Positions 1 to 41,582 of a DNA stretch of 64,000 bases are shown here, piece by piece (the first letter of the stretch is position 1; every line of letters starts with the position of its first letter). The notes under the pieces are model-generated. The model was not told the DNA's origin. It made no database searches and saw only the letters and a program-made list of their open reading frames with translations. The position numbers and the translations under genes are program-made. Location of the stretch: the NCBI GenBank assembly GCA_003194525.1, contig NBIV01000162.1, positions 62,001-126,000 of the forward strand, read 5' to 3'. The stretch is from Gracilariopsis chorda. Its lineage: Eukaryota; Rhodophyta; Florideophyceae; Gracilariales; Gracilariaceae.

Positions 1-303
1 TCAGCTCCCCCTTATTTTTTCCCTTACAGGGTGGCTTTCCCGCTACCCACAGCTCGTGTTCGCGTGTGCCACTAAAGTGGAAACCTCACCTCTCTAGAGG
101 ACGACCATCCCCATACACCGCTCCTGCGGATACCCGATTCTTGCCTCAACCTCCCTGCGCAAGTCGCGACGGTTGGCCTCGGCCTTACAACCCGACATAG
201 TCGTGCCACTCCTGGGAGGGCTCTACCCAACTGGGCTCACCTCTAACGAGGTAACATCCCGAACGTTTTTCGGTGCGCTTCCGCTTCCGGGCATTGCACT
301 ACA
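1..303 (+). mobile_element. 3' part of an LTR (825-bp solo-LTR family)
   Basis: This stretch matches the 3' third of the LTRs at 36810-37634 (+), 15925-16719 (+) and 9677-10501 (-). Shared blocks include the 'gcaagtcgcgac' segment, 'ctgggagggctctaccc' and the terminal GGGCATTGCACTACA. It ends in CA like the other copies. The left end lies outside the window, so its target duplication cannot be tested. It is more diverged than the two 825-bp copies. The sequence directly after it is the middle of a transposase gene, so this LTR appears to have inserted into that transposon. Confidence 0.8.
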
Positions 304-7401: not shown

Positions 7402-9028
7402 TGCATCGCGGTGAATAACTCTCACTCTGGGGTTTCAACGCACTTCTTTCTCCATTTCTCTTTCCACTACCCTCGGAGTGCACGCATGTGCTCCACCTGA
7501 CGCATCCAGAACCGTTCACCCGCTTGGAGAACTTTCGTTTGCGAGTCTTCTCAAACTACATCAGCATGAGTGCCCCTTTTTGCGGCAGCGCTCCTTCCCT
7601 TATTGCGCTTCAGCTGGCGCGGCAAACCAAACTCACTTCTGAATTTGTGCGCAATCTCTCACCAGACCCCCGCAGTCATCAACTTCCGATTTGAGTTCAA
7701 CGTGTCGACGCGCTTTCGGACTTGCCTTTTTATCGGAGTTGCCTTCCAATTCACAACCCCACTTGCATATTTGGGGGAAGCGTTCCTTCATTTGTGCAGG
7801 CTCTAAGTAGCCTCCAAACTAACATTGAGTAGCTTTAACCTGGTAACCTTTGCAACTCTTTTGGAAGCACTGCGCCGGACGAAAACCCATCTTACTGGCA
7901 GTCAGTTTTTGAATTGAAGATTTGGAGGAAGCGTTCCCTCCCGTCCGGAACCTATGTAATTGGTTTTTTTTTCAAGAAATGGGTGACAATTAATCAACAA
8001 AGGAACCATTCGTGTAAATAATCTGGCAAACCGTTCTCCGTCTTATGTGTTTCTTTCTATTCTCTCTACCTACTTCGCTTGCCCTTTTGCGCCAACGCAC
8101 CACCGAAGTTGCAACCGACGCTCTTTTTTTCGAGTCACCGACGGAACTTGACGTAATTGTGGTCACCCGGAAACCTTCGTTTCTGTGCTGCGTAGACCCG
8201 TGTAGGCTAGAGGCTTCTTGAACATCTTCATGTCTTTGAACAACCCTTGCCTTTGGCTTGGCGTCTGGACCGAGCACCGGAAGCCTTTACGCTGCAACTC
8301 TTTGCTACTACTACACGATCCCCAGCCCCGCGCTGAACTAAGAACTCTACACCCCAGCCGTTTGCGTACGCATTGTGATTCGGCGTTACCTCCCCAACAC
8401 AAAAACTTGGGTTTAGAAGAAAGTCCCGCCACTCCACCGGAAGCTGCGCGGAGTTGAGAAATGACCAGACTGGACGCTTGCATCTTTGATTAAGGGCCTC
8501 TGTTGCCATTACCCTTACGTAGACTTTGGCACTCTTACTGTTGATATAGTTCGAAAGCTAAGCACCGGCAGGGAATCGAGTGGGGACTTGAACTAATCTG
8601 AGGGCTGGTAATCACACCGTGTAACCAGTTCTGCTGGGGTGTGCTCTACGAATCCTCGGACACGGGGTGTCTCATCGTTCAGCCCGGACTAAATCTTCGT
8701 TACTGATAGCAGAGAAACCTTTGCCAAGCGAGCATCCACAAGGAACTAGAGGAGGTTTACTGGCGAAAACATATCCCCTGTAAGTAACCTCTCCTGGACG
8801 TTCCGTAGGAAAGCACGCAGCAAGTTCTGGTTTGTGCATAAATTGTCAGGCAGCAGCAAATCACAACTCACCGGGAGAGTCTAATTCGGAGTCAGAGGTC
8901 TGACCTTTAGGGCCTTCGGAGATAGCGTCTCCTGCCAGTGTCCCCGCCAAGAAGAATCCCTCGCCCGGTATGGGACCGGTGAAGATAAGAAATTACTACT
9001 CTCCTCTCTGACTGCCAGTCTCTCAGTG
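7402..9028. other. No supported gene; upstream flank of the Copia remnant
   Basis: Short frames on both strands have no recognisable domain. The 5' LTR and primer binding site of the Copia element should lie in the right part, but I could not find a direct repeat between this region and 13863-14140. Confidence 0.4.
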
Positions 9029-12000
9029 ATGGATGGGGATGGAGTTACAGATACAAGGCGCGTCCCTCGCTTACAAGGGAACGCAGACTACTATACTTGG
9101 CGGATATATGGTCGCCACTTGATGCACGCCTCACAAGCAATCTTCGTGCTCAGCCAAGAGCGAACCATAGAGACACAAAGTACCGCCAAAGCGCGAAAGC
9201 GCTGGGACGATGCCGATAGGAAAGCACGTTCTATTATCGTGCAAAACTCAGGCCCACAACCCATCGTTGCCGTCTCAGAGCTACTAAAACGAGAGCATTG
9301 CACCTCATTAGAAGTATGGACGAGGTTGGAATCAACCTATAAGAAGGACAACATCCAGCCCAAGATGAACCTTCGTCAACGTCTAAGCGGTATGAGATTC
9401 CATGATAGTGACGACATACAGAAGCACCTACACGACATAGAAACCATCTTCTTAGAGCTTGCACGCTTAGGAGATCGACTACCTGATCCCAAACGCACCG
9501 CTTGCCTACTTAAAACACTCCCCGAATCTCTAATGGCGATCACTCTCCTAGCCGACGCCAATAAAATGGAATACGATCAAGTCGTCTCCCTCGTACGTTC
9601 TGAAATGGACAGAAGAAAGCATCGAAAGTGCGCAACTATCTCAGAGGCACAAGAACCAAATAAAGCGCGACAAAATTGTGGTGCAACGCCCCAAAGGGGA
9701 GAAACACCGAAAGACGTTCGGGATCTTTCCTCCGTGGAGGTGAACCCAGGTGGGTAGAGCCCCTCTAGGGGTGGCACGGCGGAGCCGGTTTGTAAGATCG
9801 AGGCCACCCTTCCCGACTAGCGCAAGAGGGTTTAGGACAAGAATCGGTATCCGCGAGAGTGGGAATGCGTCCTCGCCAGAGGTAGGTTTCCACGTAAGTG
9901 GGAGTGTGTGAGCGGATGCGCACACGAGGGCCGCGGATAGCGTGAGGTGCTACCATAGAAAGTGGGAAAAGGAAGGGCGAAGAGGAGGAAAAGAGGAAGA
10001 AGTGAGTCGCGAGAGCGACGGGGGCGAACGGCGATGCCGGTACCAATATCCCTATACAGGGCCAAACACCAATGCAATTGGAATAATATGACTCCCAGTG
10101 ATGGGTCCTTTTAGATGTGCAAGGGGTTAGATGTCCCGTGGTTCACGGCGTTTCCCTCCAAGGAGGAGTAGAGCACGCGCGCAAGCGGTAACAACTAGAG
10201 CCAATTCCCCAGGTTGGGGTCCCTTGTTGGGGAAGGTTTACTGGAGCGACGGCAGTGCGCCGTCGCACTAAGTACTAGCTTCCCAGAAATGGGTGTGAAA
10301 ATAATAAATAAAATCAACTAAAATACTCCACATTTCATGGCAACATCCACTACTGTGGCCAACCACCAATTGACCCAAAACCGTGTCCCACGTGTCCATA
10401 TCCACTGCTGTGGGGCGTAGTTCATATACACACTACATAACCGATAATATCAGGAAAGTATTCAAGTACCAAGAATCCCTCCTTGAGGGCGTTGCACTTC
10501 AAAAATCCGCACCCCGCAGCCCAGATATCTCACCCCGGACCAAGAAAATCTACGTTCAAATCCAAGAATATTAGATGCTGGAACTGTGGTAAACTAGGAC
10601 ATATTCGCGCTGAATGCAGAGTAAGGAGAACGATTGACCGTGCAAAACACAGACATGCTGAACGCGGAAGAAATTGCTTCCTAAGGAGAAACAAGAACAG
10701 AAAGCAAGGACTATGGGACTCAAACAGTCATGAACAAAACCCAAACCGACGCAATAGCCAACTATACAACACTGAACAAGAGCCATGAGATTTCGTGGCA
10801 ATTGCTAAGGCTATTTCTTCCTGCTTTGATAGTAAAGTCAACACATGGCTCGACTGTAGTGCGGCACATGTCTTTGTCAACGAAAAATCATTGTTCTGGG
10901 ACTATGAGTGTACTGGAGACCAAACAGTTCGCATATGCGACCGCCAATCTAGGATCGAAGGATACGGAACAATAATACTCCCACTGGGAGATGGATTGAG
11001 TCTTCCCGCAAAAAACACACGATCCTTTGACTCTTACCTTACTTCCCTCTCAATCCTCGCACAGCATACTCGGGTAGAATTCTTGAACAACTCAGAGTCC
11101 ACGTGCTTCATCATCAAACATCCGAAATCTGGTGATGTACTCTACCGGTCACAACAGAGGGACGGACTATATCCGCTTCCGAACCCTATCGCCCAACCAA
11201 GAGCACATACGGCAACCCCATTCTCAGGTGACACTGCCAAGGACTGGCACGACAGATTTGGTCACAAAGGTAAGGATAGGCTGTTTTCCTGTTCGGAACA
11301 ATCGAAATGGATCCCAAACCTCTTACGCTCTGAGGTATACAACATCCAATGCTCAGACTGCATTGACACAGGGAAAAAACGAGCTGCCGTGGAACCCTCA
11401 GCGTCAACGGCCCCGAAGCCCCTAGAGCTGGTGCCTAAAGACCTTACTGGTCCGATCAACCCACCTTCATTACAAGGCTCGAGGTATATGCAGGTTCTCC
11501 TTGATGACAAAACAAGATCTTCATCTATATACTTTATGGATAGGAAACTGCAGTTCTTCCCGTCCATAAGATGGTAAAAGGCGCGTGCAGGAAACGCGTT
11601 ACGAGGCTATACACGTTACCGGTTACGCCTTGACGGGGCTGGTGAAAACCGATCTGGTGACTTCATCACATACGCGCCAGAAAACGGAGTCGTCCTCGAG
11701 TACACTTCACCGTACGCCCACCAGTCGAATGTAGCAGCAGAAAAGATCATCCAAGACCTGTGGAAAACTGCAAGGACATTTCTGCACGATTCAGAACTCC
11801 CCCTAGAACTATGGGAAGAGGCGATATCCCACGCGAACTGGATACGTAACCGCCTACCAAACTCCCGTGTAGGTATGCAGATTCCCTACACACTATGGTT
11901 CAAGAGAAAGCCAGACTTCTCGAGACTTTTGAAGTTTGGACAAAATGGACATGCACTTATCTACAGGTCAGGGACTATTCCCAACAAAAAACTCCTGCCT

Positions 12001-13862
12001 TGCGCACTTCCTGGACAATTTGTTGGAATGCAAAGCCTACGCACTGTGTACCGGATCTACATTCCTTGGCTACGCAAAGTAGTGAAATGTAGACAACAGG
12101 ACTTCATGATCACAAAAGAAACACTCCCTTCAATCAATCAACTGATTGATTTTTCCTCATTGAGACGAAAAGAAGCGGAGAGCGAAATGCGAGATGCCAA
12201 CGAGGAACATATGGGCGCATCTCTAGCTCAGTGCTTGGTATCAAGGGCAAGGTATGACAACGAGGAACAGGAACTCATGGTTCCAAAGACGTTTAAAGAT
12301 GCACGCAACATTCCAAAGTGGGCCGATGCAATCGATAGGGAGTATGAGGCTCTAACCAGCAGAAACACGTAGAAGCTGGTGGACCGGAAATCTGAAATGA
12401 AACCACTGCCCTTCCTGTACACGTTCATCGCGAAGCACATAACCAGCAAGCCACTGAAGGTACTGCCAAAGGCTCGATGTGTGGTCCGAGGAGACAGACA
12501 GGAGCCGTACTTGGATTACGATCCGGAAAGGTTGTACCCCCCCGTAGCATGGCTGGAGACAATCCAACTAGGGCTGGCAAAAAGCGGCTGCACAAGGTTT
12601 AATAATGGAAACCTTGGATATAAGTAACGCTTACTTATACGGAGACCTGGACGAGTCTTTAATAATAGAACAGCCTACCTATGCTTCGGCCTCGTCACAT
12701 CAACATGGAAAGGTCTGCCTATTACTGAAGTCGATGTATGGTGCGAATCAAGCCGGACACATCTGGGGATCGCTATTCCATACAGAGCTGCTAAAGCTAA
12801 AATTTTGGCTGTCGCGAACGGACAGCCGACTGTACATCTACGAGTCGAGTATGGGGTTTATTATACTCATTATTGTGGTCGACGACGTACTAATGTTGTC
12901 GGACTCAAGATCTCTCCTGGAATACTTCAAGTAAGAGATGAAGAAACTCTGTCAAGTGAAGTTTCTTGATGAAGCAAATTCTTTTATTGGGATGGACATT
13001 GACAGGGACAGCAAAGGCATTTGGGTATCACAATAAAGATACGTCGTGAACAGGTTAGAGGAGTGCTGATTAGTGAAATCAAATCCTGCGCAAATTCCGT
13101 TGCCTACTCCTTGCGATCTGACGGATCTAAAGGGCGACGAAGAAGGTCTGTTCACTGTGCTTCACGCCCGATACCGGAAACTGGTACGGCATTTGATGTA
13201 CTTTGCTGTGACTTCAAAGCCTAACATCATGTTCGCAGCTTCAATGATAGCAAGGCAAGTGCATGCTCTTGGAAAGAGAAATGCTGGACTTGCAAAACGG
13301 GTGTTAAGGTACCTAAAAGGTACGAAGGACTATTGCCTCCACTTCTCATCAAGCGCCAACGCGCCGATAGAAGCGTATTTCGATGCAGACTGGGCTGGCT
13401 GCAAGGACACCAGAAAGTCTACAACTGGTTTGCTGGAAAAGGTAAACGAAGGACCCATTCTTTGGACTACAAAAAAGCAGACGATAATTGCGCTGTCTTC
13501 TGGAGAGGCTGAATACATCGCACTATCCTACTGTGGAAAAGCAGTGAAATGGCTAGGGAGATTGTTTTGGGAAATGCTGAATGAACCCATCGTGTAAGAT
13601 GAACCGGAAGACATGTATCCCATCCCCGTATTCAGTAATAGCTCCACCGTGTTGTCAATCGTCCATAATGCCCGGACATCTGAGGGTAGCAAATATATTG
13701 CTCTGCAATTCCACCATGTTAAAGAATTCGTGACGAATGGCATTGTCCGCATGGAATACGTGCGAACTGAAATGCAGCCTGCCGACTTATTTACAAAGTC
13801 GTTGAGGCAAAACTCTCTGCAAACATTGAGTTTGCTGTGTGGCGTACATCGTCACTCCTGAT
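9029..13862 (+). mobile_element. Ty1/Copia-type LTR retrotransposon remnant (broken)
   Basis: Parts in Copia order: a gag segment (about 9029-9676), a CCHC zinc knuckle (about 10575-10616, CWNCGKLGH), protease and GAG-pre-integrase (about 10830-11290, including DWHDRFGH), the integrase core and C-terminus (about 11400-12100, including ANWIRNRLPN), reverse transcriptase (about 12440-12935, including YGDLDESL, LLKSMYGANQAGHIW, VVDDVLML) and RNase H (about 13370-13860, including ADWAGCKDTRKSTTG and SSGEAEYIALS). Protease and integrase before reverse transcriptase is diagnostic of Copia rather than Gypsy. The element carries more than half a dozen breaks and is inactive. A solo LTR of another family is inserted in gag at 9677-10501. 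I could not identify its own LTRs. Confidence 0.9.
9677..10501 (-). mobile_element. 825-bp solo LTR inserted in the Copia gag
   Basis: Exactly 825 bp, with ends TGTGGTGC... and ...TTGCACTTCA on the plus strand, flanked by the direct duplication AAAAT (9672-9676 and 10502-10506). It is a close match in reverse orientation to the 825-bp copy at 36810-37634. TG...CA ends plus a 5-bp target duplication fit a solo LTR. A shared internal hairpin (GCGACGGC...GCCGTCGC) is present. No internal retroelement coding sequence accompanies it. Confidence 0.9.
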
Positions 13863-14625: not shown

Positions 14626-15308
14626 ATGAAGGCCCACGTCCATCGTGTAACCCCCCTGTTTCCTGACGCTGTGGCATCCGGCAGCCGCTTCTGCGCTGGG
14701 TTCTTCCATACGCTGGCACTTACAACGGAGCTCATGTCTTATGCCATGCTGTACCGTACCCTATCGTATATCTGCAAGACTTCGCTATCTTCGCCGCCCT
14801 CCAAGAGCTGCGTCCTGGCTCCGTTGTCTTTGATTGTGACATTGGCTCCGGTTCGGCCTCCATGGCCTTTGCAAGGGCAGTTGCCCCCACCGGGCGCATG
14901 TTCACCTTTGAGTTTCACCACATGCGCGCCAAAGCAGCGCGTCAACGGTTTCAAAGCCTGCAGCTGTCGCATGTGCTATCGGTATCGGCTAGCGTGGACG
15001 TGCTCCAGGACGGCTTTGTGGGTCTGCAAGACGCTTTTGCAGAAGCTGCGTTCTTAGACGTTCCCTCACAGTGCGAAATGAAGCATCAACTACGTCGCGT
15101 GCTACGCCCAAATGGAACGGTATGCACGTTCTCTCAGTGTGCAGAACAGGTTGGACGCACGTGTGCCATGCTTAGAAAGATGCACTTTCATTGCCTCCCC
15201 ACCATTACAGCCCCACTTCGTGCCTACAAGACGCAAGAGCAGTTGCTACACACCCCTGCTTTTGATCAACTTTCTTCCGACCTGTCCACTGCCGTCGCCG
15301 CCGCGTAG
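14626..15308 (+). pseudogene. TRM61-like tRNA (adenine-58-N1) methyltransferase pseudogene
   Basis: The frame ending at 15308 contains YLQDFAIFAALQELRPGSVV, an S-adenosylmethionine-binding-like GSGSAS, then APTGRMFTFEFH, ARQRFQ, DVLQDGF, FLDVPS, LRRVLRPNGTVCTFSQC, EQVGRTC and LRAY. These follow the order of eukaryotic TRM61/TRMT61A, the catalytic subunit that methylates A58 of tRNA. The preceding part (GFFHTLALTTELMSYA-LYRT) is in another frame, so a frameshift lies near 14760-14790. The usual glycine-rich motif I reads DCDIGSGS, and the FLD-P-PW motif has lost its tryptophan. The N-terminal barrel is not recognisable. The copy is intronless and set among retroelements, so a decayed retrocopy or gene relic is likely. 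Confidence 0.65.
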
Positions 15309-15924
15309 CCTGGCGTCTCCAGCGTAACTGCCTCCCCCGTTACCCACGCAGTGCTGGGCACTACTATTCCGGATCAGCACACCACGCACACTCCAGCTAC
15401 AGCGCCTTCCACGGAGAAGTAAAGGTAGAGGAAGCTAGCAGCAGTATTTAATTATTGAGAGCCTTTTCTATAATAGGAAGAAGAGAATGGATGGGAGTGA
15501 GGTTTTGCAGACAATGGCAGTTTCAAACAAAAAACGCCCTGTGCATCAGCCCACACAGACAAAAGTTTAGCGCTGGGGATTTGAGATCCTTCAGAATTGT
15601 CACAACGTCATCCATCTTCAACTCACATTCCGGAACTCGGTGTAAAATATCCTCTACTTCGAGCAGTAAAGACGAAGAAAATCCAAAGCCCTCAAGCTCT
15701 CAACACTATTCGGGACTGTTTCCGTTGCCAGTTGTGCGTTCCCCGGGCATGACAGCGACGGCGCATCTTTTTCTTCTGCTTACATCTCTACTAAATTACA
15801 TTACTGAAACGAATGGCCCAGAAAGCTGGAATCGTCTGAAAGCCCTCGACTGATGGAGGTTACGTCTGGCCAGGACATATTGAGGTGGATGGAAGAATGT
15901 TGCTGGAATTTTTCCGGGCCCTAC
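15309..15924. other. No supported gene
   Basis: Short unrecognised frames between the TRM61-like pseudogene and an LTR. Confidence 0.5.
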
Positions 15925-16719
15925 TCAAGTGCAATGCCCTCAAAGAGGGCTTCTTGGTACTTGGTTGATTTCTAGAATGTTTCGAAAATATATTCATTGC
16001 ATGAACTATGACCACTACTAAGAGATTTGACACCTGGGACACGGGAGAGCCAATTGGCGGTTGGCCACGGTTTTGGGCATGAACCACCAAAGAGCAGTAA
16101 TTTACTTAGTTCAATTTATTATTTTTACACCCATTTCTGGGATGGTCAGTATTTAATGCGCCGAGGAATTGCCTTCGCACCAGTAAAAAGTCCCCGAAAA
16201 TGAACACCTTCCTGGGGAATTGGCTCTAGATTTCACCGACATTGTGTGCTCTCTACTTCTCCATGGGGTTAAGCACCGTAGCATACGGAAAGTTCAACCC
16301 CGCTTGCCTATTTAAAGGACCAGAGCATTCGGATTGTTATTCCATCTTTCTTGGTGGTCGCTTTGTATAAGGTGTATTTACCAGCACTGCCGTTAGTGTT
16401 CGTCACGAAACTCGTGACTCAGCTCCCTCTTATGTTCCCTTTACAGGGTGGCTTTCCAGATTCTCACGGTTCGTGTTCGGGCGTGCCACTAACTTGGAAA
16501 TTTCACATCTATAGAGGACGATCACCCCATAAACCGCTCTTGCCAATACGAGATTCCTACCTCAACCTCACTTTGCAAGTCGCGATGGTTGGCCTCGGCC
16601 TGAAAAACTGACATAGTCATGCCACTCCTGGGAGGGCTCTACCTTGCTGGGCTCACCCCTAACGAGGAAAGATGCCGAACTTCTTTCGGTGCACTCATGC
16701 ATCCGGGTATTGCACTGCA
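15925..16719 (+). mobile_element. Older solo LTR of the 825-bp family
   Basis: About 795 bp. It begins near TCAAGTGCAATGCCCTCA and ends GTATTGCACTGCA, aligning along its length with the 825-bp copy at 36810-37634 but with many differences and small gaps. No flanking 5-bp duplication is visible (CCTAC left, GCATC right). Higher divergence and loss of the duplication point to an older insertion. Confidence 0.75.
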
Positions 16720-18096: not shown

Positions 18097-18300
18097 CGGC
18101 GACGGTCTCTGATGCGAAGGAGTTAGCGGTATTCCTATAGCCTTTTACCCTTTTCTGGCAGTGACCGCAAACGTGCTGTCTACGTTGTGCACACCGGTCT
18201 ACCGCTTCGGGAGTTTTACGGGCGCGAGCAGCTTCAATACACTGATTCCATTTCGGGTCACATCTACATTTTGAAACGTTCGTACGATTTGCGTTTCACC

Positions 18301-19752
18301 ATGGCAGAGAACATCAACGTCAAGCCGAGTACTCCTTGCCTGCCTCTCCCATCGTGTGGGAGTTCGTCAAGCACACTTTCACCTGTCTCTATATCCGAAT
18401 CATCGTTGATGATGGAGCATTCCCCGCATCCCACGCAAAAACTGATGAAAGCACAAACAGTCGGCTACGGCGCAACAACGTCTAGTCGAAAGAACGAGCT
18501 TGAAGCGGTCCAAGGGCATGGAGCGCAGTTAACAATCCGTCACTCATCCGACGCAGTCATGGTTGGACGCCGATTTTCAAACTACTCAGAGATTAACGCT
18601 TCGGCATACGGGCAACTGAACCAATTGCGGGACGGCATCAACCGCGGCCTGGATGGCTATTCTTCCAACTTGAATGCGCTTCTTGTGTTTGTGCCGCTCG
18701 GTATTCTGGCAGGGCTTTTCGGGCTGCCGGATTTCTACGTATTTGTATTCAACTTTCTAGGCATGGTTCCTCTGGCCATGCTTCTCGGGAAGGCGACCGA
18801 GGATATTGCTGAACATACGAACGAAACGCTAGGCGCTCTGGTGAACGTGACGTTTGGCAATGCTGTGGAACTGATTCTTTCTATCTCTGCTTTGCGAGCG
18901 GGTCGAATGACGCTGATTCAAGACACTATCGCCGGTTCTGTGCTGAGTAATCTACTGCTGGTTCTGGGGTCTGCGTTTTTCTTTGGGGGGCTTCGTTACC
19001 GGGAACAAATGGTTCTGCCGGCTGTGAGTGAGGCGAATGCGGATCTACTATCGTTTGCTGTATTCGGGTTTTCGATCCCTGCACTGTTTGCAATGGCGTT
19101 GCCCAACGACGAGAAGAAAGGAGCGACAGAAGAGAAGATGAGCCTGGTAACAAGTGTGTGTTTGCTGCTGATGTACGCGATGTACCTCACGTTTCAACTG
19201 TACACTCACGCGGAGCTTTATCAAGGAATTGATCAGGAAGTGGACGAGGAAGCGGGTGTTGGGGAAGTTAGCTCAAGAGATGAAACTGTTGCCAGTCTAC
19301 CAATGGCTTTTGGGATCCTAGTTGGCATGGTGGTGTTGGTAGCACTCTGTTCTGAGTTTTTGGTGAGTGCAATTGACGGCTTTTCAGAACGAGTTGGATT
19401 AGGTCAAAAATTTATCGCGGTGGTGTTGCTGCCTGTAGTGGGCAATGCTGTGGAGCACATGTCAGCAATTCTGGTGGCAAGACACAACAAGATAGACTTG
19501 TCGATCGGCATCGCGTGCGGAAGCAGTGTACAAATTGCGTTGTTTGCGGCACCGTTGCTGGTTGTGATTTCGTGGCTGTTCGGAAGTGAGCACCTGACGC
19601 TGAACTTTGCGCTGTTCGAGACGGTGTGCATTGGGTTTTCTGTATTTGTTGTGAATGCGACGTTGAGGGATTCTCGGTCGAACTGGTTGGAGGGCGCTGT
19701 GCTGGTGATGTGCTACGTGATTCTTGCAGCAGCGTTTTACTTTATGGAATAG
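18301..19752 (+). CDS. CAX-type Ca2+/H+ antiporter
   Basis: A 483-residue intact single-exon ORF. ATG 18301 (MAENINV) is preferred over an upstream GTG at 18187. Residues 1-120 are hydrophilic and Ser-rich, a regulatory-type N-terminus. About eleven membrane spans follow. The two signature repeats of the cation/proton exchanger family are present: GNAVELILSI near residue 186 and GNAVEHMSAI near 381. The second is followed by a Gly-Ser-Ser-Gln motif (ACGSSVQIALF). An acidic linker (DQEVDEE) near residues 308-325 separates the two halves, as in CAX proteins. The family exchanges cytosolic Ca2+ (or Mn2+) for protons, typically at vacuolar membranes. Length and motif spacing are normal for the family. 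It is the leftmost gene of a GC-rich host island and is probably functional. Confidence 0.95.
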   Translation: MAENINVKPSTPCLPLPSCGSSSSTLSPVSISESSLMMEHSPHPTQKLMKAQTVGYGATTSSRKNELEAVQGHGAQLTIRHSSDAVMVGRRFSNYSEINASAYGQLNQLRDGINRGLDGYSSNLNALLVFVPLGILAGLFGLPDFYVFVFNFLGMVPLAMLLGKATEDIAEHTNETLGALVNVTFGNAVELILSISALRAGRMTLIQDTIAGSVLSNLLLVLGSAFFFGGLRYREQMVLPAVSEANADLLSFAVFGFSIPALFAMALPNDEKKGATEEKMSLVTSVCLLLMYAMYLTFQLYTHAELYQGIDQEVDEEAGVGEVSSRDETVASLPMAFGILVGMVVLVALCSEFLVSAIDGFSERVGLGQKFIAVVLLPVVGNAVEHMSAILVARHNKIDLSIGIACGSSVQIALFAAPLLVVISWLFGSEHLTLNFALFETVCIGFSVFVVNATLRDSRSNWLEGAVLVMCYVILAAAFYFME

Positions 19753-24133: not shown

Positions 24134-25228
24134 TGGGAAGAGGGATGGGGGGGATGGGGACGAGTTTTTTTTTTTTTTTTTGTTTTTGTTTGGGACATGT
24201 GGACGGTAGGAGGTGAAGGTGTTTTTTTCTACATTTTTTGTGGAGGCGCTTTGGTGGTGGGGGGTGCTGAAGTTGGTGCAAGTTGGACGGGGTTTGGTTT
24301 GGGATGTTTGCAAGCGGCGGTGGGGAGTATGGAGCAATTGTGCGTTTGTGAATGAGATGGAGGGGGAGGGGTGGGCGATGTGGAGCTTGCGCAGGTGACT
24401 TTGAGGATAGCTGCTGAGAAGAATATTTGTAACTGAGTAACTTGGGGGGGGGTGTTGTTGTTGTTGTTGTTGTTGTTATTGATGATGATGATGATGATGC
24501 GGGTGCACGCTTTGGCGTTGAATTTGTGTTGTGTAAACGATTTTGGCTGAAGCGGTTGCCATTTGCGTGAGGAACAGCGGTCGACGTGCTTGGAGCGCGC
24601 TGTGCGCTGCAAGCTGTTTCCGGCAGCGAAGCGTTTGTGCGCGTGCGAGCGCCGCGGAGGCGGATGCTCGTTGGCGCATTTCTACGCGCGCGTGTTGACG
24701 TGTTCCGCGCGTTATTTTGGACTGTGCTCACTTTTCGCGCTGCCGCGCTTGCCACCCGCCGCTGCATAACTACGTGCTGACAAGCGCGCCGTGCCCACGC
24801 GCGCCGTCTCCGCCGCCGCCAAACACTCATATGCCTGCCGCCCATACTGAGCGAGTAGCGCCCCCTTCTGTTTGTGCCCCATTTCTCCTTTGTGTCGCCC
24901 GCTTGCCATCTCGGTACAACTAACGTCTTTAGCGTGCAGCGTTACGCTTCCATGTGCTTTCCTCTTCCGCGCTGTGCGGTTTATAACCAACCAAACAAAG
25001 AAGAAAAAAAAAAAAGAATAGTGTACTAGTAGCTTGTTGTTGTGTGTATAGTAGATATATATATATATATATATATTAAGCATTCGGTTGCGTGCTCATC
25101 CCACCAGCTGATACTATTGCGCAGTGGTAGCGCCGGCCTAGTGCCGCTTGTAGTACGTAGTACGAGTAGCGACACACACAAAGACAGAGAGAGAGATAGA
25201 GAGAGAGAACAAGTCAACACAAAGCCGT
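24134..25228. other. 3' intergenic region between convergent LARP and CCCH genes
   Basis: Holds a T-run at 24163-24181, a GTT/GAT microsatellite near 24456-24500, a GC-rich patch at 24590-24830 with no recognised product, and an AT dinucleotide repeat at 25054-25076. A (GA)n tract lies near 25180-25207. The genes on both sides end here, so this is shared 3' flank. Confidence 0.5.
25054..25076. repeat. (AT)n microsatellite
   Basis: About eleven AT dinucleotides in a row, between the convergent LARP and CCCH genes. Confidence 0.9.
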
Positions 25229-36183: not shown

Positions 36184-36804
36184 CTAACCTTCCATCGGGC
36201 GCGCAATATACTTCTTCAAACGACGGGCGTGTATTCCATGGCGAGTGTACCGGTTGTGTGGAGAAACCAACGTGTACCTTGGATGGTGAGCCCTCACCAC
36301 ACGACATGGACCAAAGTACTTAGAGGAAAAAGCAGGCCATTTCACGGTAGTGTTCAGGGCCTTTCCACGAGCCACAAGGACCAGATCACCGACTTCAAAC
36401 TTCGTAATGGAGACTGCATCGACTTCCTTCAAAGGCCTCAGAGCAGAACGTTTAGCTCTATGATTCCTTGATGCGAGCAGCTCCACTGATCGGAACCGGT
36501 CGGAGGAGTCCCCAACTCGTGCCACGACACCACCTTCATCGGAGGTCATACGTGGTTTCACGCCGTAAAGCAACTCGAACGGAGAGATTCCACTGGCAAG
36601 CTGTCTGCGCCGGTATCCGTACAGAACCGAAGGCAGGTGTTCGTCCCAACTTGAACGATTATCCAGAGCTTTCTTTCCTATTGCTCTTTTCAGAGTACCA
36701 ACCATCCTTTCAGCTCGGCCATTGGACATGGGGGCGTACGCCAAGACCGTTTTCCATTTGATACCATGGTCCTCCATGAATGAGACGAGCGACTTAGAAG
36801 TGAA
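36184..36804 (-). mobile_element. Gypsy integrase, distal part
   Basis: Shows the last part of the integrase catalytic core (WKTVLAYAPMSNGRAERMVG) and a C-terminal DNA-binding region (DLVLVARG, KYFGPCRVV). It is separated from the rest of the integrase by the solo LTR at 36810-37634. There is no obvious chromodomain. Confidence 0.9.
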
Positions 36805-36809
36805 GCATG

Positions 36810-37634
36810 TGTAGTGCAATGCCCTCAGGGAGGGATTCTTGGTACTTGATCGTTTTCCCGATAGTATCGGTTGTGTAGTGTGTGTATGAACTACGCCCCA
36901 CAATGGTGGGTATGGACACGTGGGACACGGTTTTGGTTCAATTGGCGGTTGGCCACAGTAGTGGATGTTGCCACGAAATGTGGAGTATTTTAGTTAATAT
37001 TATTTATTATTTTCACACCCATTTCTGGGAAGCTAGTACTTAGTGCGACGGCGCACTGCCGTCGCACCAGTAAACCTTCCCCAACAAGGGACCCCAACCT
37101 GGGGAATTGGCTCTAGTTGTTACCGTTTGCGCGCGTGCTCTACTCCTCCTTGGAGGGAAACGCCGTGAACCACGGGACATCTAACCCCCTTCCACATCTA
37201 AAGAGGCCCATCCTTGGGAGTATAATTGTTCCAATTGTATTGGTGTTTCGCCCTGTATAGGGATATTGTTACCGGCATCGCCGTTCGTCCCCGTCGCTCT
37301 CGCGACTCACTTCGCCCTCTCTTCCTCCTCTTCGCCCTTCCTTTTTCCCCTTTTCAGGGTAGCACCTCCCGCTATCCGCGGCCTTCGTGTGCGCATCCGC
37401 TCACACACCCCCACTTACGTGGAAACATACCTCTACTGAGGATCACACCCCGCTCACGCGGATACCGACTCTTCGCCTTCACCTCCCTGCGCGAGTCGCG
37501 ACAGGTGTCCCTGGTCTTACAAATCGGCTTTGCCGGGGCACCTCTGGGAGGGCTCTACCCAACTGGGTTCACCTCGTGAGAGGAAGATCCCGAACGTCTT
37601 TCGGTGTTTTTCCCCTTTGGGGCATTGCACCACA
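36810..37634 (+). mobile_element. 825-bp solo LTR inserted in the Gypsy integrase
   Basis: Begins TGTAGTGCAATGCCC and ends GGGCATTGCACCACA, a 15-bp terminal inverted repeat with one mismatch. The flanking duplication is GCATG (36805-36809 and 37635-37639). It is the same length as the copy at 9677-10501 and closely similar in sequence. Because it lies inside a young Gypsy element, this family moved even more recently. Confidence 0.93.
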
Positions 37635-37639
37635 GCATG

Positions 37640-40598
37640 TAGCATTGTCCGACACCACGATACGAGGGAAACCAAACACGGCAATGATCTCTTTTCTCAC
37701 GAAGTCCATGACCTCTTGTGACGTAGACCATTTTGTCGCTATGGCAAGTGGCCAACCAGTCAAATGCTCAACACAAACCAGAATGAAACGGTTTCCGGAT
37801 TCGGTAGTCGGAAGAGGACCTGCAAAATCAATCGAGAAGACGTCAAAGAGAGAGGAAATGGGAGTCCGAAGGTTGCTGTAATACCTTGGTAGTGGTGCGA
37901 GTCTCTGGCATTCGTCACAACTCTTGACGTAGTTGCCGATATCTTCATGCATAGTGGGCCACCAGTATCTCTCAGTGATGAACTTCCTTGTATTCTTCAA
38001 ATCCCAGTGTCCAATCTCATCATGAAATGACTTGATAATGATCTGTCGCCGACCAATAACAGGAGCAACTCGCAGTGCGTTTGGCATCCTTTTGAACAAT
38101 TTTCCTTCCCAGACCAGGAATTTCTTCGCATTTCGTCGGATTGCTTGGCGGAGACGTGCATCAGTCTCATCTGTAGGGAGACCACACAAGAAGCGCGCAA
38201 TGTTTGCGTAGTATGGTTCAAGACCGGGGAAGTTGTCAGGCTCAACAGCCATACAAGCAAGGTCGCCTTCATCTTCTAACGGCTCGACCTCGTCTCCGTG
38301 AACTATCCTTGACAGATAATCTGCTGCGCCCTTCTCCTTGCCTGCGCGATACACTATTTCAAAGTCATACTCGGCCAGAAAGTCTAGCCAGCGAGCTAAG
38401 CGTCCATGTATATCGCGCTTCTGAAATGCATATCGTAAAGCCATATGGTCCGTGATTACCTTGAATGGAACAGACGAGAGTAGATACAATCTGAACTTCT
38501 TGAAAGCAAAGATAACTGCCAATGCTTCTCTTTCACATGCCGAGTAGTTCTTTTCTGCAGCGGTCATAGTACGACTGGCAAACTGCAGAGGATGTATCTT
38601 CCCATCTTCCTTTTTCTGAGAGAGAACTGCGCCGAGTGAAACACTAGAGGCGTCCGTTTCCACATTGAAAGGCTGCTCGAAGTTTGGAAATGAAAGTACC
38701 GGAGGCTCAGTCATCTTTTTCTTCAGACCGTGGAAAGCTTCTAGCATCTCTCTGGTCCAACTCAGCTTCTTATTCCCCGAGGTAGCACTGTGAAGCACGG
38801 CGGAGGTCTCAGCAAAGTTTCTGATGAACCTTCGATAGTATCCGGCTAGTCCCAGAAAAGATCGTAGTTCCGTAGTGGTGGCAGGAATTGGGGCATCCTG
38901 GATCTTAGCAATCTTCTCCTGGTCCACGTGCACTCCATCTCCGTTGATTACATGGCCTAGAAGAGACACCTCCGATAGTGCAAAGAAACATTTGGACAGT
39001 TTGAGCTTCAATCCATGCTTCGCAATCCGACCAATCACAGCCTTCAAGTGAATCACGTGCTCTCTGAGGCTTCTTGAGAATATGACAACGTCATCAATGT
39101 AAACCCGAACGAATGGAAGTCCTCTTAGCACATGATCCATCATCCGTTGAAAGGTGGAAGGGGCATTCATGAGACCAAATGGCATGACTTCGAACATGAA
39201 AGTTCCGTATCTGCACACAAAGGTCGTCATCTCTTTGCAATCCTCAGACATCTTGACTTGCCAGTATCCAGAGAACAGGTCTAGCGTAGTGAAGACACAG
39301 CAACCTCCAAGTTCGTCAAAGATCTCTTCTATGCGTGGCAAAGGCCAGCGGTCAGCTTTCATGACTCTGTTCAGCTCTCTGTAATCGACACAAAACCTTG
39401 CGCTTCCATCTTTCTTCGAAGCAATGACAATTGGAAACGACCAAGCAGAGGCTGAAGGGGTAATGATACCAGCTTCGAGAAGAAGATCAATCTCCTTGCG
39501 TACGAGCTCGTTGTGCTTCGGCGACATCCTCCTGGCTCTGAAGTAGATTGGTTTGTCAACTGTCAACTCGAAAGAGTGAGAAACCGGCACATCGGCTGGG
39601 CGTAAGTCTTTCAATGACCAAGCGATTACATTCGAGTCCTTCAGACAAGAAACCAAGTCGTTTCTTTCATCCTCTGAAATGTGCGAGAGTTTTGAAAAGA
39701 GTAACTTCTCGTGCTGCTCATCGGTAGTGATGTCCAATTGCGGGATCATTTCGGGAGTCTCGCCATGGTTCTTTTCTGTTAGAGCAACCACGAGTTGTTC
39801 GTCATCTTCAGAAGCAGTATCAGAGTCAATGGCGGCGTCAGAATCTGAAGTGAAGTCGTCGCTATCCGTCTGGAAACCCTCTTCGTCTGAAATCTCGACG
39901 CGAGCATAGTCAAAGCCAAGTGTTACTCTTTTTCCATCAATATTCATCTTCACGTGCTGATTTTCGAGTTCAAGGCAGGCTTGGAACGATTCAAGTGTTG
40001 GACAACCCACAATTATGTCGAATGGCGGACCATCAATAACAAGAAAGCCTAATGGAACGGAGACGCCCCTGAAGGATATAGGGATATCATATAGTATTCC
40101 TCTGCACACGGCGCTCTGTCCATTGGCAACAGTTATCTTCTTCGTCGTATGCTTGGGTTCCAGTGCTAGCCTGTCACACAGCTTGGTTGACATAAGGTTT
40201 GGAACAGCTTCAGAGTCGAGCAAAGCTTCAGTCTCAGTCCCATATATCATAACGGGGACCGCCTTAAGACGTCTAGGCTGCTTACCGACTGGCCCAACAA
40301 AAGGGCGTCGAACATTGCTTTTGCGACCGATGAGCTTACGAATCTCTTTCTTCGCATCATCTGCGTCTCCTCTGATAAGTTGTCCAAAGGATAGTCCGGA
40401 AGAGGCATTCGCGAGCTCAGTGAGAACGTTATATTTGCTTGCATGGTCTTGAAGACTCTGTTTCTTCGACTTCCTCTGTTTCGGCTTCTTGACTTTCTGT
40501 TCATGAACCTTAGGTCTCCGAACTCTCTCTTCGTATCTTGTTGGATTGAGCAAAAGCGGGATGGGTGCATCACCGTCTGAACGGCGCTGTTTAGGCAA
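37640..40598 (-). mobile_element. Gypsy pol: protease, reverse transcriptase, RNase H, proximal integrase
   Basis: Recognisable in order: an aspartic protease-like region (ALLDSEAVPNLMS), the reverse transcriptase fingers and palm (FRARRMSPKHNELVRKEI, FCVDYRELN, FTTLDLFSGYWQ, FVRVYIDDVVIFS), RNase H (VETDASSVSLGAVLSQ), the integrase zinc-binding domain (HxxxH...CDEC) and the start of its catalytic core (DVFSIDFAGPLP). The frame is long and open, consistent with a young element. Confidence 0.93.
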
Positions 40599-40730
40599 CG
40601 CTTCACCGTCAGCACTTCTCTTGGTTGTGGCGACTACATCAGCATTCCCAGCGTTTTCGGTGACAATTGATACGGGTTCGGATCCTTTCTGAAGATTAGA
40701 TGCTAACTCTTTAGATTTCTCATTGGTATC

Positions 40731-41474
40731 TTATACTTTACGGGTCTCTTCGGGTCGGATTCTTCGCCAACAAGTGATCTCTGAGTGTCCAATTTTCCCA
40801 CAACGCGGGCATCGCGTATCTCGGTGCGGATTAGAGTCACATTGTGAGGCATAATGTCCGGGCTTCTTGCAGTATGAACAAACCTTTTCGTAGTCTCGAC
40901 GCTCCGTCTGTGTCTTCTTAACCATTAATGACAGCTGAGCAAACTGCTCAGAGAGTTTGTCGACCCTAGAATCCAAAGCATGAGAGATAGTTTCTTCAGA
41001 AGACCTGTGGTTTTGGACAATACGCTTAGGTGGGGTACTTAATAAAACGTAGTTCCCCATTGCTTTCCGGGCAGCATCGAAGGCTTTCAATTGAACCTTC
41101 AACTCATCATAATCATCAGCGCCACGGAAAACAACGAACTGGGCTAGATCAGCGTATTCCATTACAGCTTTCTTCAAAAGACCAAACTTAGCCTTAGCGT
41201 TGAATCCTGCCAAGAAGAGGTTGTCTATATAGGTCAAGGAACCAACCAAGTCTGCATAATCCAATTTAGCAGAAATTGCAAGGCGTATATCTTCCTCAGG
41301 CTCCTCGGCTTTTCCAAAACGATCGATGAAAGCTTGCTTAACGGAGCGGTAGTCCTTCGCTTCTTCCGAAAGTGAACCATTAACAGCATAAGAATCATAG
41401 TAGAAATCAAAGGCTTTGTTCTCAAGGAAACCAAGCAACTCAAGTGCCATGTCCTCGTCAGTCTTTCCTCTCAT
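40731..41474 (-). mobile_element. Gypsy gag with two CCHC zinc knuckles
   Basis: A 247-residue frame with a helical capsid-like N-terminal region and two C-terminal zinc knuckles, CSYCKKPGHYASQC and CPRCGKIGHSEITC. It is followed downstream on the minus strand by pol. Confidence 0.9.
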
Positions 41475-41582
41475 TGTAACATTCTCAAAGTAAAAGAAGA
41501 ACTTTACGACGTCAATAGAAGAACCGTCATAAGAAGTAAATGCAGCGTTAGAGTCAGAAGAGCTCCCTCCTCAAGAGTACCA

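Follow-up and report, generated by a model that had tools for sequence, protein, structure and literature searches.

Solo LTRs left by recombination between the two LTRs of an element have been surveyed in plants (PMC7251063). In the part of that survey's account that we draw on, plant solo LTRs and the two LTRs analyzed here (A and B) are alike, without difference: each is an intact LTR inside a target duplication, with complete relatives elsewhere in the genome. The complete relatives of A and B, which we call family F1, resemble Ty3/Gypsy chromoviruses in their domain order (reverse transcriptase [RT], RNase H, integrase, chromodomain), in their LTRs, and in their 5-bp target duplications. 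Two features set F1 apart from these chromoviruses, although named members may share either of them: a gap of about 700 residues between the integrase and the chromodomain, and saturation with short hairpins.

For the hairpins, there are two other systems to compare. RNA viruses with genome-scale ordered RNA structure have a global excess of folding over codon-preserving nulls. F1 and two related families (F2 and F3) have such an excess as well, but unlike in those viruses, it is equal on the two strands and lies at spans of 11–14 nt. In yeast, polymerase template switching between short inverted repeats homogenizes their arms, according to the portion of the work on it that we use (PMC8604942). 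Such switching would make or keep perfect short inverted repeats, including in coding sequence. However, the yeast events described there are few, have arms of at least 7 bp, and include loop inversions, whereas the hairpins of F1–F3 are dense, have arms of 4–6 bp, show no excess of inversions, and are confined to certain retrotransposon families.

The window, by which we mean the whole 64-kb stretch of Gracilariopsis chorda DNA that was analyzed, contains A at 9677-10501 (minus strand; subfamily A) and B at 36810-37634 (plus strand; subfamily B). As a preliminary description of this DNA had stated, the two have the same length (825 bp) and lie between different perfect 5-bp duplications: AAAAT for A (9672-9676 and 10502-10506) and GCATG for B (36805-36809 and 37635-37639). 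Both start with TG and end with CA, and the termini of B form an inverted repeat with 14 of 16 positions matching. A and B had also been described as twins, which is correct for their length but not for their sequence: when aligned end to end, they are 89.3% identical. Because each has closer relatives elsewhere in the genome (best matches of 98% for B and 96% for A), they are cousins from two subfamilies.

The two further copies reported in the window are real but do not belong to these subfamilies; they are diverged relatives (about 72–73%). Copy C (15925-16719, plus strand) is 73–83% identical to A and B in three or fewer aligned pieces. Of copy D, the window contains just the 3' part (1-303, plus strand); the whole copy measures about 794 bp, begins roughly 490 bp before the window, and is 71.8% identical to A and 73.2% identical to B. 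We looked for a 5-bp duplication at C and D and could recognize none. Both carry GGGCCCTACTC directly upstream of the alignable LTR (15914-15924 for C), and since this is common to the two, their subfamily may have its 5' end at a different place. A search of the 64-kb window against Rfam gave no family at the gathering score.

A and B are inserted in different retrotransposons. The host of A is a set of Copia pieces (8885-12372, plus strand) with a gag domain (PF14223), SH3_retrovirus, and a gag_pre-integrs match below the cut-off. A lies just past the copia-type gag domain of the open reading frame at 8885-9757, and if its flanks are joined, the reading continues into a C-X2-C-X4-H-X4-C zinc knuckle (identified by eye), which bears out the original placement of A in a Copia gag. 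The host of B is a set of Gypsy pieces (36184-41570, minus strand) with a zinc knuckle, protease, RT, RNase H, and an integrase that is split by B. On one side, the reading frame at 37569-40730 (minus strand) has RT, RNase H, and the integrase zinc domain; on the other side, the frame at 36184-36993 (minus strand) has a weak match to rve_3 (E = 2.6e-4, below the cut-off). Joining these flanks gives what reads by eye as an integrase core, as had been proposed. For both A and B, the sequence on either side is Copia or Gypsy coding sequence, with no internal region of the LTR's own element.

We also joined the flanks of each LTR, keeping one copy of the duplication, and searched for matches within the same genome. 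The uninserted sites found this way lie in further copies of the host elements rather than at the same locus in another individual. For B, there were 158 candidates, and all 40 of the places that were scored match at 100% over 120 bp. For A, 23 of 25 matches run across the junction, at 80%–88% identity, and the other two are A's own flanks. The perfect matches for B imply a young and abundant host Gypsy, and hence both the insertion of B and its conversion into a solo LTR appear to be recent. This host Gypsy also recurs every 5,662–5,679 bp or so on contigs C573 (four times), C769, C642, C601, and C507, and the near-constant spacing resembles head-to-tail arrays of an LTR element.

In the preliminary description, no internal region was seen, which is true of the window but not of the genome (91.3 Mb), where paired LTRs with gag-pol exist. 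We retrieved six LTR pairs, 9.0–10.9 kb apart. The layout of F1 is an 825-bp LTR, about 8.2 kb of gag-pol, and a second 825-bp LTR, for a total of about 9.9 kb. A PBS-like tract starting with TGG lies 2–3 nt past the 5' LTR, and a run of G lies directly ahead of the 3' LTR. Five of the six pairs have matching 5-bp duplications (the sixth does not), and the LTRs within a pair differ at 7–16 of 818–826 sites. One copy, L010 (C57:37000-46999), encodes a gag of 728 amino acids and a pol of 1,800 amino acids. Its gag has no match in Pfam but has a CCHC motif that we identified by eye. Its pol (L010:1110-6509, minus strand) has RVT_1, RNase H, Integrase_H2C2, rve, and Chromo, all above the cut-offs, with RT and RNase H ahead of the integrase. 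The chromodomain (PF00385; 34.7 bits against a cut-off of 25.1, in this one copy) is at residues 1736–1773; the roughly 700 residues between it and the end of the integrase core (residue 1027) have no Pfam match. On the domains of this one copy, the family of A and B is a Ty3/Gypsy chromovirus, and a recently active one.

To count complete and solo copies, we searched the genome for full-length LTRs and took the best 40 for each query, from 1,896 and 1,868 first-look candidates. Among the 77 of these 80 LTRs that could be read with their flanks, which are the best-matching copies and not a random sample, 30 are 3' LTRs (by the G-run), 27 are 5' LTRs (by the PBS-like tract), and 20 adjoin neither tract. 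A perfect 5-bp duplication is present at 17 of these 20 and absent at three. Genome-wide, we counted LTR ends with patterns that allow up to three mismatches. There are 1,659 LTR 5' ends, of which 587 (35%) are at a 3'-LTR junction, and 1,429 LTR 3' ends, of which 522 (37%) are at a 5'-LTR junction; a core LTR pattern has 1,070 matches, and control patterns written backwards have none. By these counts, 28% of the LTRs adjoin neither boundary, which is an upper bound because the longer junction patterns lose more to mutation and because truncated copies are counted. A junction pattern that requires less of the LTR gives 721 5'-LTR junctions instead of 522 and leaves about 14% next to neither boundary. 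The share of such LTRs is between about 14% and 28%.

A and B are almost certainly solo LTRs of this abundant chromovirus, left by LTR-LTR recombination of complete elements. In each case, a complete element of about 9.9 kb would have inserted, duplicating 5 bp of the target; its two LTRs would then have undergone homologous recombination, deleting the internal part and one LTR, and the remaining LTR would have stayed inside the original duplication. What is observed is the LTRs with their duplications, the uninserted host sites, and the coexistence of solo copies with complete elements that carry the same LTR; from this we infer that LTR-LTR recombination made A and B specifically. Recombination was the explanation first offered, along with the suggestion to count solo against paired copies and to look for duplications. 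Both kinds of copies are found, 17 of the 77 LTRs in the sample are solo copies inside perfect 5-bp duplications, and the opposite outcome that had been named, 825-bp units only, is not what we see. The claim that the density of solo LTRs implies frequent recombination was overstated, as 1,659 LTR 5' ends in 91.3 Mb amount to an average of 1.16 per 64 kb; about 32% of stretches of this size should have at least two (two observed; P = 0.32).

It had also been suggested that the 825-bp unit moves by itself as a short non-autonomous element (TRIM-like or of another class). That all copies in the window are unpaired would fit this, but the units contain no internal part, and the same LTR flanks gag-pol at hundreds of places. 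A TRIM-like element would be a short unit without a coding partner that shares its LTR, and here complete coding elements carry the same LTR. A self-moving unit is not needed to explain A and B and is highly improbable.

Some other arrangements of the family's LTRs were noticed. Two evenly spaced triplets (C1:541061/550157/559253, spacing 9,096 bp; C70:244282/254201/264120, spacing 9,919 bp) look like reciprocal LTR-internal-LTR-internal-LTR products of unequal crossing over. At L018 (C208:46881-48194) and L019 (C177:88482-89353), a whole LTR abuts a partial LTR of the family, as if one had inserted into another.

As solo LTRs, A and B are ordinary by themselves. Of potentially greater importance is the family they come from, whose codons and LTRs carry a second pattern: a palindromy of fixed span that the other retrotransposons we examined in the window lack. 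Per kb, gag has 24.3 perfect hairpins (arm of 5, loop of 2–8), pol 19.3, A 14.5, and B 17.0, as compared to 5–6 in dinucleotide shuffles. All 16 of the window's 4-kb tiles have 5.5–8.8 per kb (z = -0.8 to 2.0). The saturation thus covers the LTR, gag, and pol, both coding and non-coding. To look beyond F1, we considered the best 30 of 150 scored RT loci (from 3,380 candidates; these are not a sample of all RTs in the genome). They form two families, F2 (7 loci) and F3 (23 loci), whose proteins are 66%–69% identical to those of F1, and in three members of each, hairpins are at 2.9–3.8 times the background. Hairpin saturation is found in F1, F2 (L091), and F3 (L100) and not in the window's Copia or other Gypsy. 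A literature search (titles and abstract openings) found no published description of such a hairpin-packed element, which does not prove absence from print.

The excess is greatest for loops of 1–5 nt, and its peak is the combination of a 3-nt loop and a stem of 5 bp, neither more nor less (52 hairpins versus 6.4 in the window, scaled to equal length). In terms of outer span, the excess falls at 11–14 nt, with up to about four times the expected number. At a span of 13, we observed 100 hairpins in L010 (25.8 expected), 95 in L011 (25.1), 40 in F2 (10.5), 29 in F3 (10.4), and 17 in A plus B (4.2). At spans of 15–16, the ratio falls to 0.8–1.6 in the element sets and 1.0–2.1 in the LTRs. The peak is absent from the window minus A and B and from the host Gypsy; the host Copia has 16 versus 10.8 expected at span 13 and 9 versus 10.2 at span 12.

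The hairpins are very unlikely to be an artifact of composition, codon usage, or counting. The three families are related and hence not fully independent, and a (TA)n tract did raise one tile of the window. However, the excess is reproduced neither by dinucleotide shuffles nor by far-distance controls in the same sequence, and direct repeats, counted as a control, have no comparable peak. Synonymous-codon shuffles fail as well: F1 pol has 128 hairpins versus 33.2 after shuffling, and the ratio is 2.2 for F2 and 3.0 for F3. For ten other coding stretches in the window, the ratios are 0.53–2.31 (z = -1.7 to 2.0), and the highest is from a short Copia gag piece (8 versus 3.5). The (TA)n tract, at 25055-25077, accounts for the high 25–26 kb tile (22 hairpins in 1 kb) and is a simple repeat rather than a signal of the family.

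We consider it possible, at a little under an even chance, that this is a clade of chromoviruses in which perfect hairpins of 11–14-nt span saturate the LTR, gag, and pol; these would shift position from family to family but persist in lineages that propagate, and would be either a working part of the cDNA or RNA or written by RT folding back over about 13 nt. We weigh these two causes nearly equally. Under selection, mini-hairpins would be useful in the element's cycle (as cDNA, as RNA, or in the particle) and changes that break stems would fail to spread; this may well be so, although we stop short of calling it probable. Under fold-back copying, the last 13 or so nucleotides of the nascent strand would copy themselves during reverse transcription and so write and re-homogenize inverted repeats; this is a serious but tentative candidate. 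If the hairpins are selected, they indicate an unrecognized structural requirement of a retrotransposon. If they are mutational, they are a footprint, readable from the genome, of how far RT lets the nascent strand peel off and fold back.

Several properties of the hairpins favor fold-back copying. Their limit is set by the outer span and not by the loop or the stem, and other retrotransposons in the window are not saturated. The excess of folding over codon shuffles is similar on both strands (z = -6.7 and -5.3 for F1, -4.4 and -3.4 for F2, and -3.0 and -4.7 for F3; the window's Gypsy is at +1.3 and +1.9). The stems are also pure in Watson-Crick pairs. With 5-bp arms, perfect stems are at 4.3 times expectation, and stems with a single mismatch are near 1 (1.12 for G:U and 0.92 for A:C). 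That G:U is not favored over A:C here counts against selection, but with 6-bp arms G:U is favored (1.91 versus 0.98), which hints at tolerance at the RNA level. Arm homogenization of this general kind is described in the yeast work (PMC8604942), although the longer arms of the events it reports count against the comparison.

The positions of the hairpins mostly differ between families, as fold-back copying would have it and selection would not. Of the F1 hairpins, 8 of 75 have a perfect counterpart in F2 and 6 of 78 in F3; in the reverse direction, 8 of 36 and 6 of 49 are perfect in F1, and 5 of 44 are common to F2 and F3. That hairpins occur in both coding and non-coding parts, on the other hand, is in favor of selection.

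Variants among copies also speak for selection. We defined stems on a single reference copy, using each copy in turn as the reference. Among six F1 internal regions (94%–96% identical), stems, loops, and the remaining sequence have about the same rate of private variants, but stems have fewer of the variants common to at least two copies, with all six references (odds ratio 2.2–3.9, p = 0.006 to 1e-6). In one random placement of the segments, as a control, there were 185 private and 28 shared variants in "stems" versus 520 and 108 elsewhere. Loops are not depleted of shared variants, and as they lie between the arms, the depletion is not regional. In the LTRs, variants found in at least five copies are depleted in stems with 10 of 10 references (p < 0.05 in six), and in a set of 12 gag copies, the same is seen with 11 of 12 references (p < 0.05 in one). 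Two results go against selection: LTR variants in 2–4 copies show no depletion in stems (with a possible bias, as the stems were defined on the copies being tested), and neither does F3 with three references. That propagating copies keep their stems agrees with selection and with fold-back copying alike.

Compensatory changes are marginal or absent among F1 copies, which counts against selection. Double changes stay paired in 14 of 23 cases in the six internal regions (100 of 268 control pairs; p = 0.04), in 3 of 7 cases in gag (control 39 of 106), and in 23 of 87 cases in the LTRs (control 276 of 996). Between families, pairing is kept in 20 of 42, 19 of 44, and 13 of 27 cases, with a control of about one-third.

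An early hint of loop inversion was rejected: among 242 loop events with multiple changes, two are inverted, two are reversed, and one is complemented, so inversion is not in excess, which counts against fold-back copying. With orientation corrected, F2 has no such event, and F3 has four reverse-complement rows (two distinct) versus five reversed rows (four distinct). We examined 25 of the 77 clusters of mutations among the six elements, and these are mostly coincident private changes; the lack of any clear birth of a hairpin among these close copies is also against fold-back copying. In the window's own LTRs, A to D, stems change less than loops from the viewpoint of A or B, in a comparison of just four sequences.

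Other open reading frames in the window encode a DDE_Tnp_4 transposase fragment (247-993), a GCD14-type tRNA methyltransferase (14667-15308), and a Na/Ca exchanger (18127-19752).
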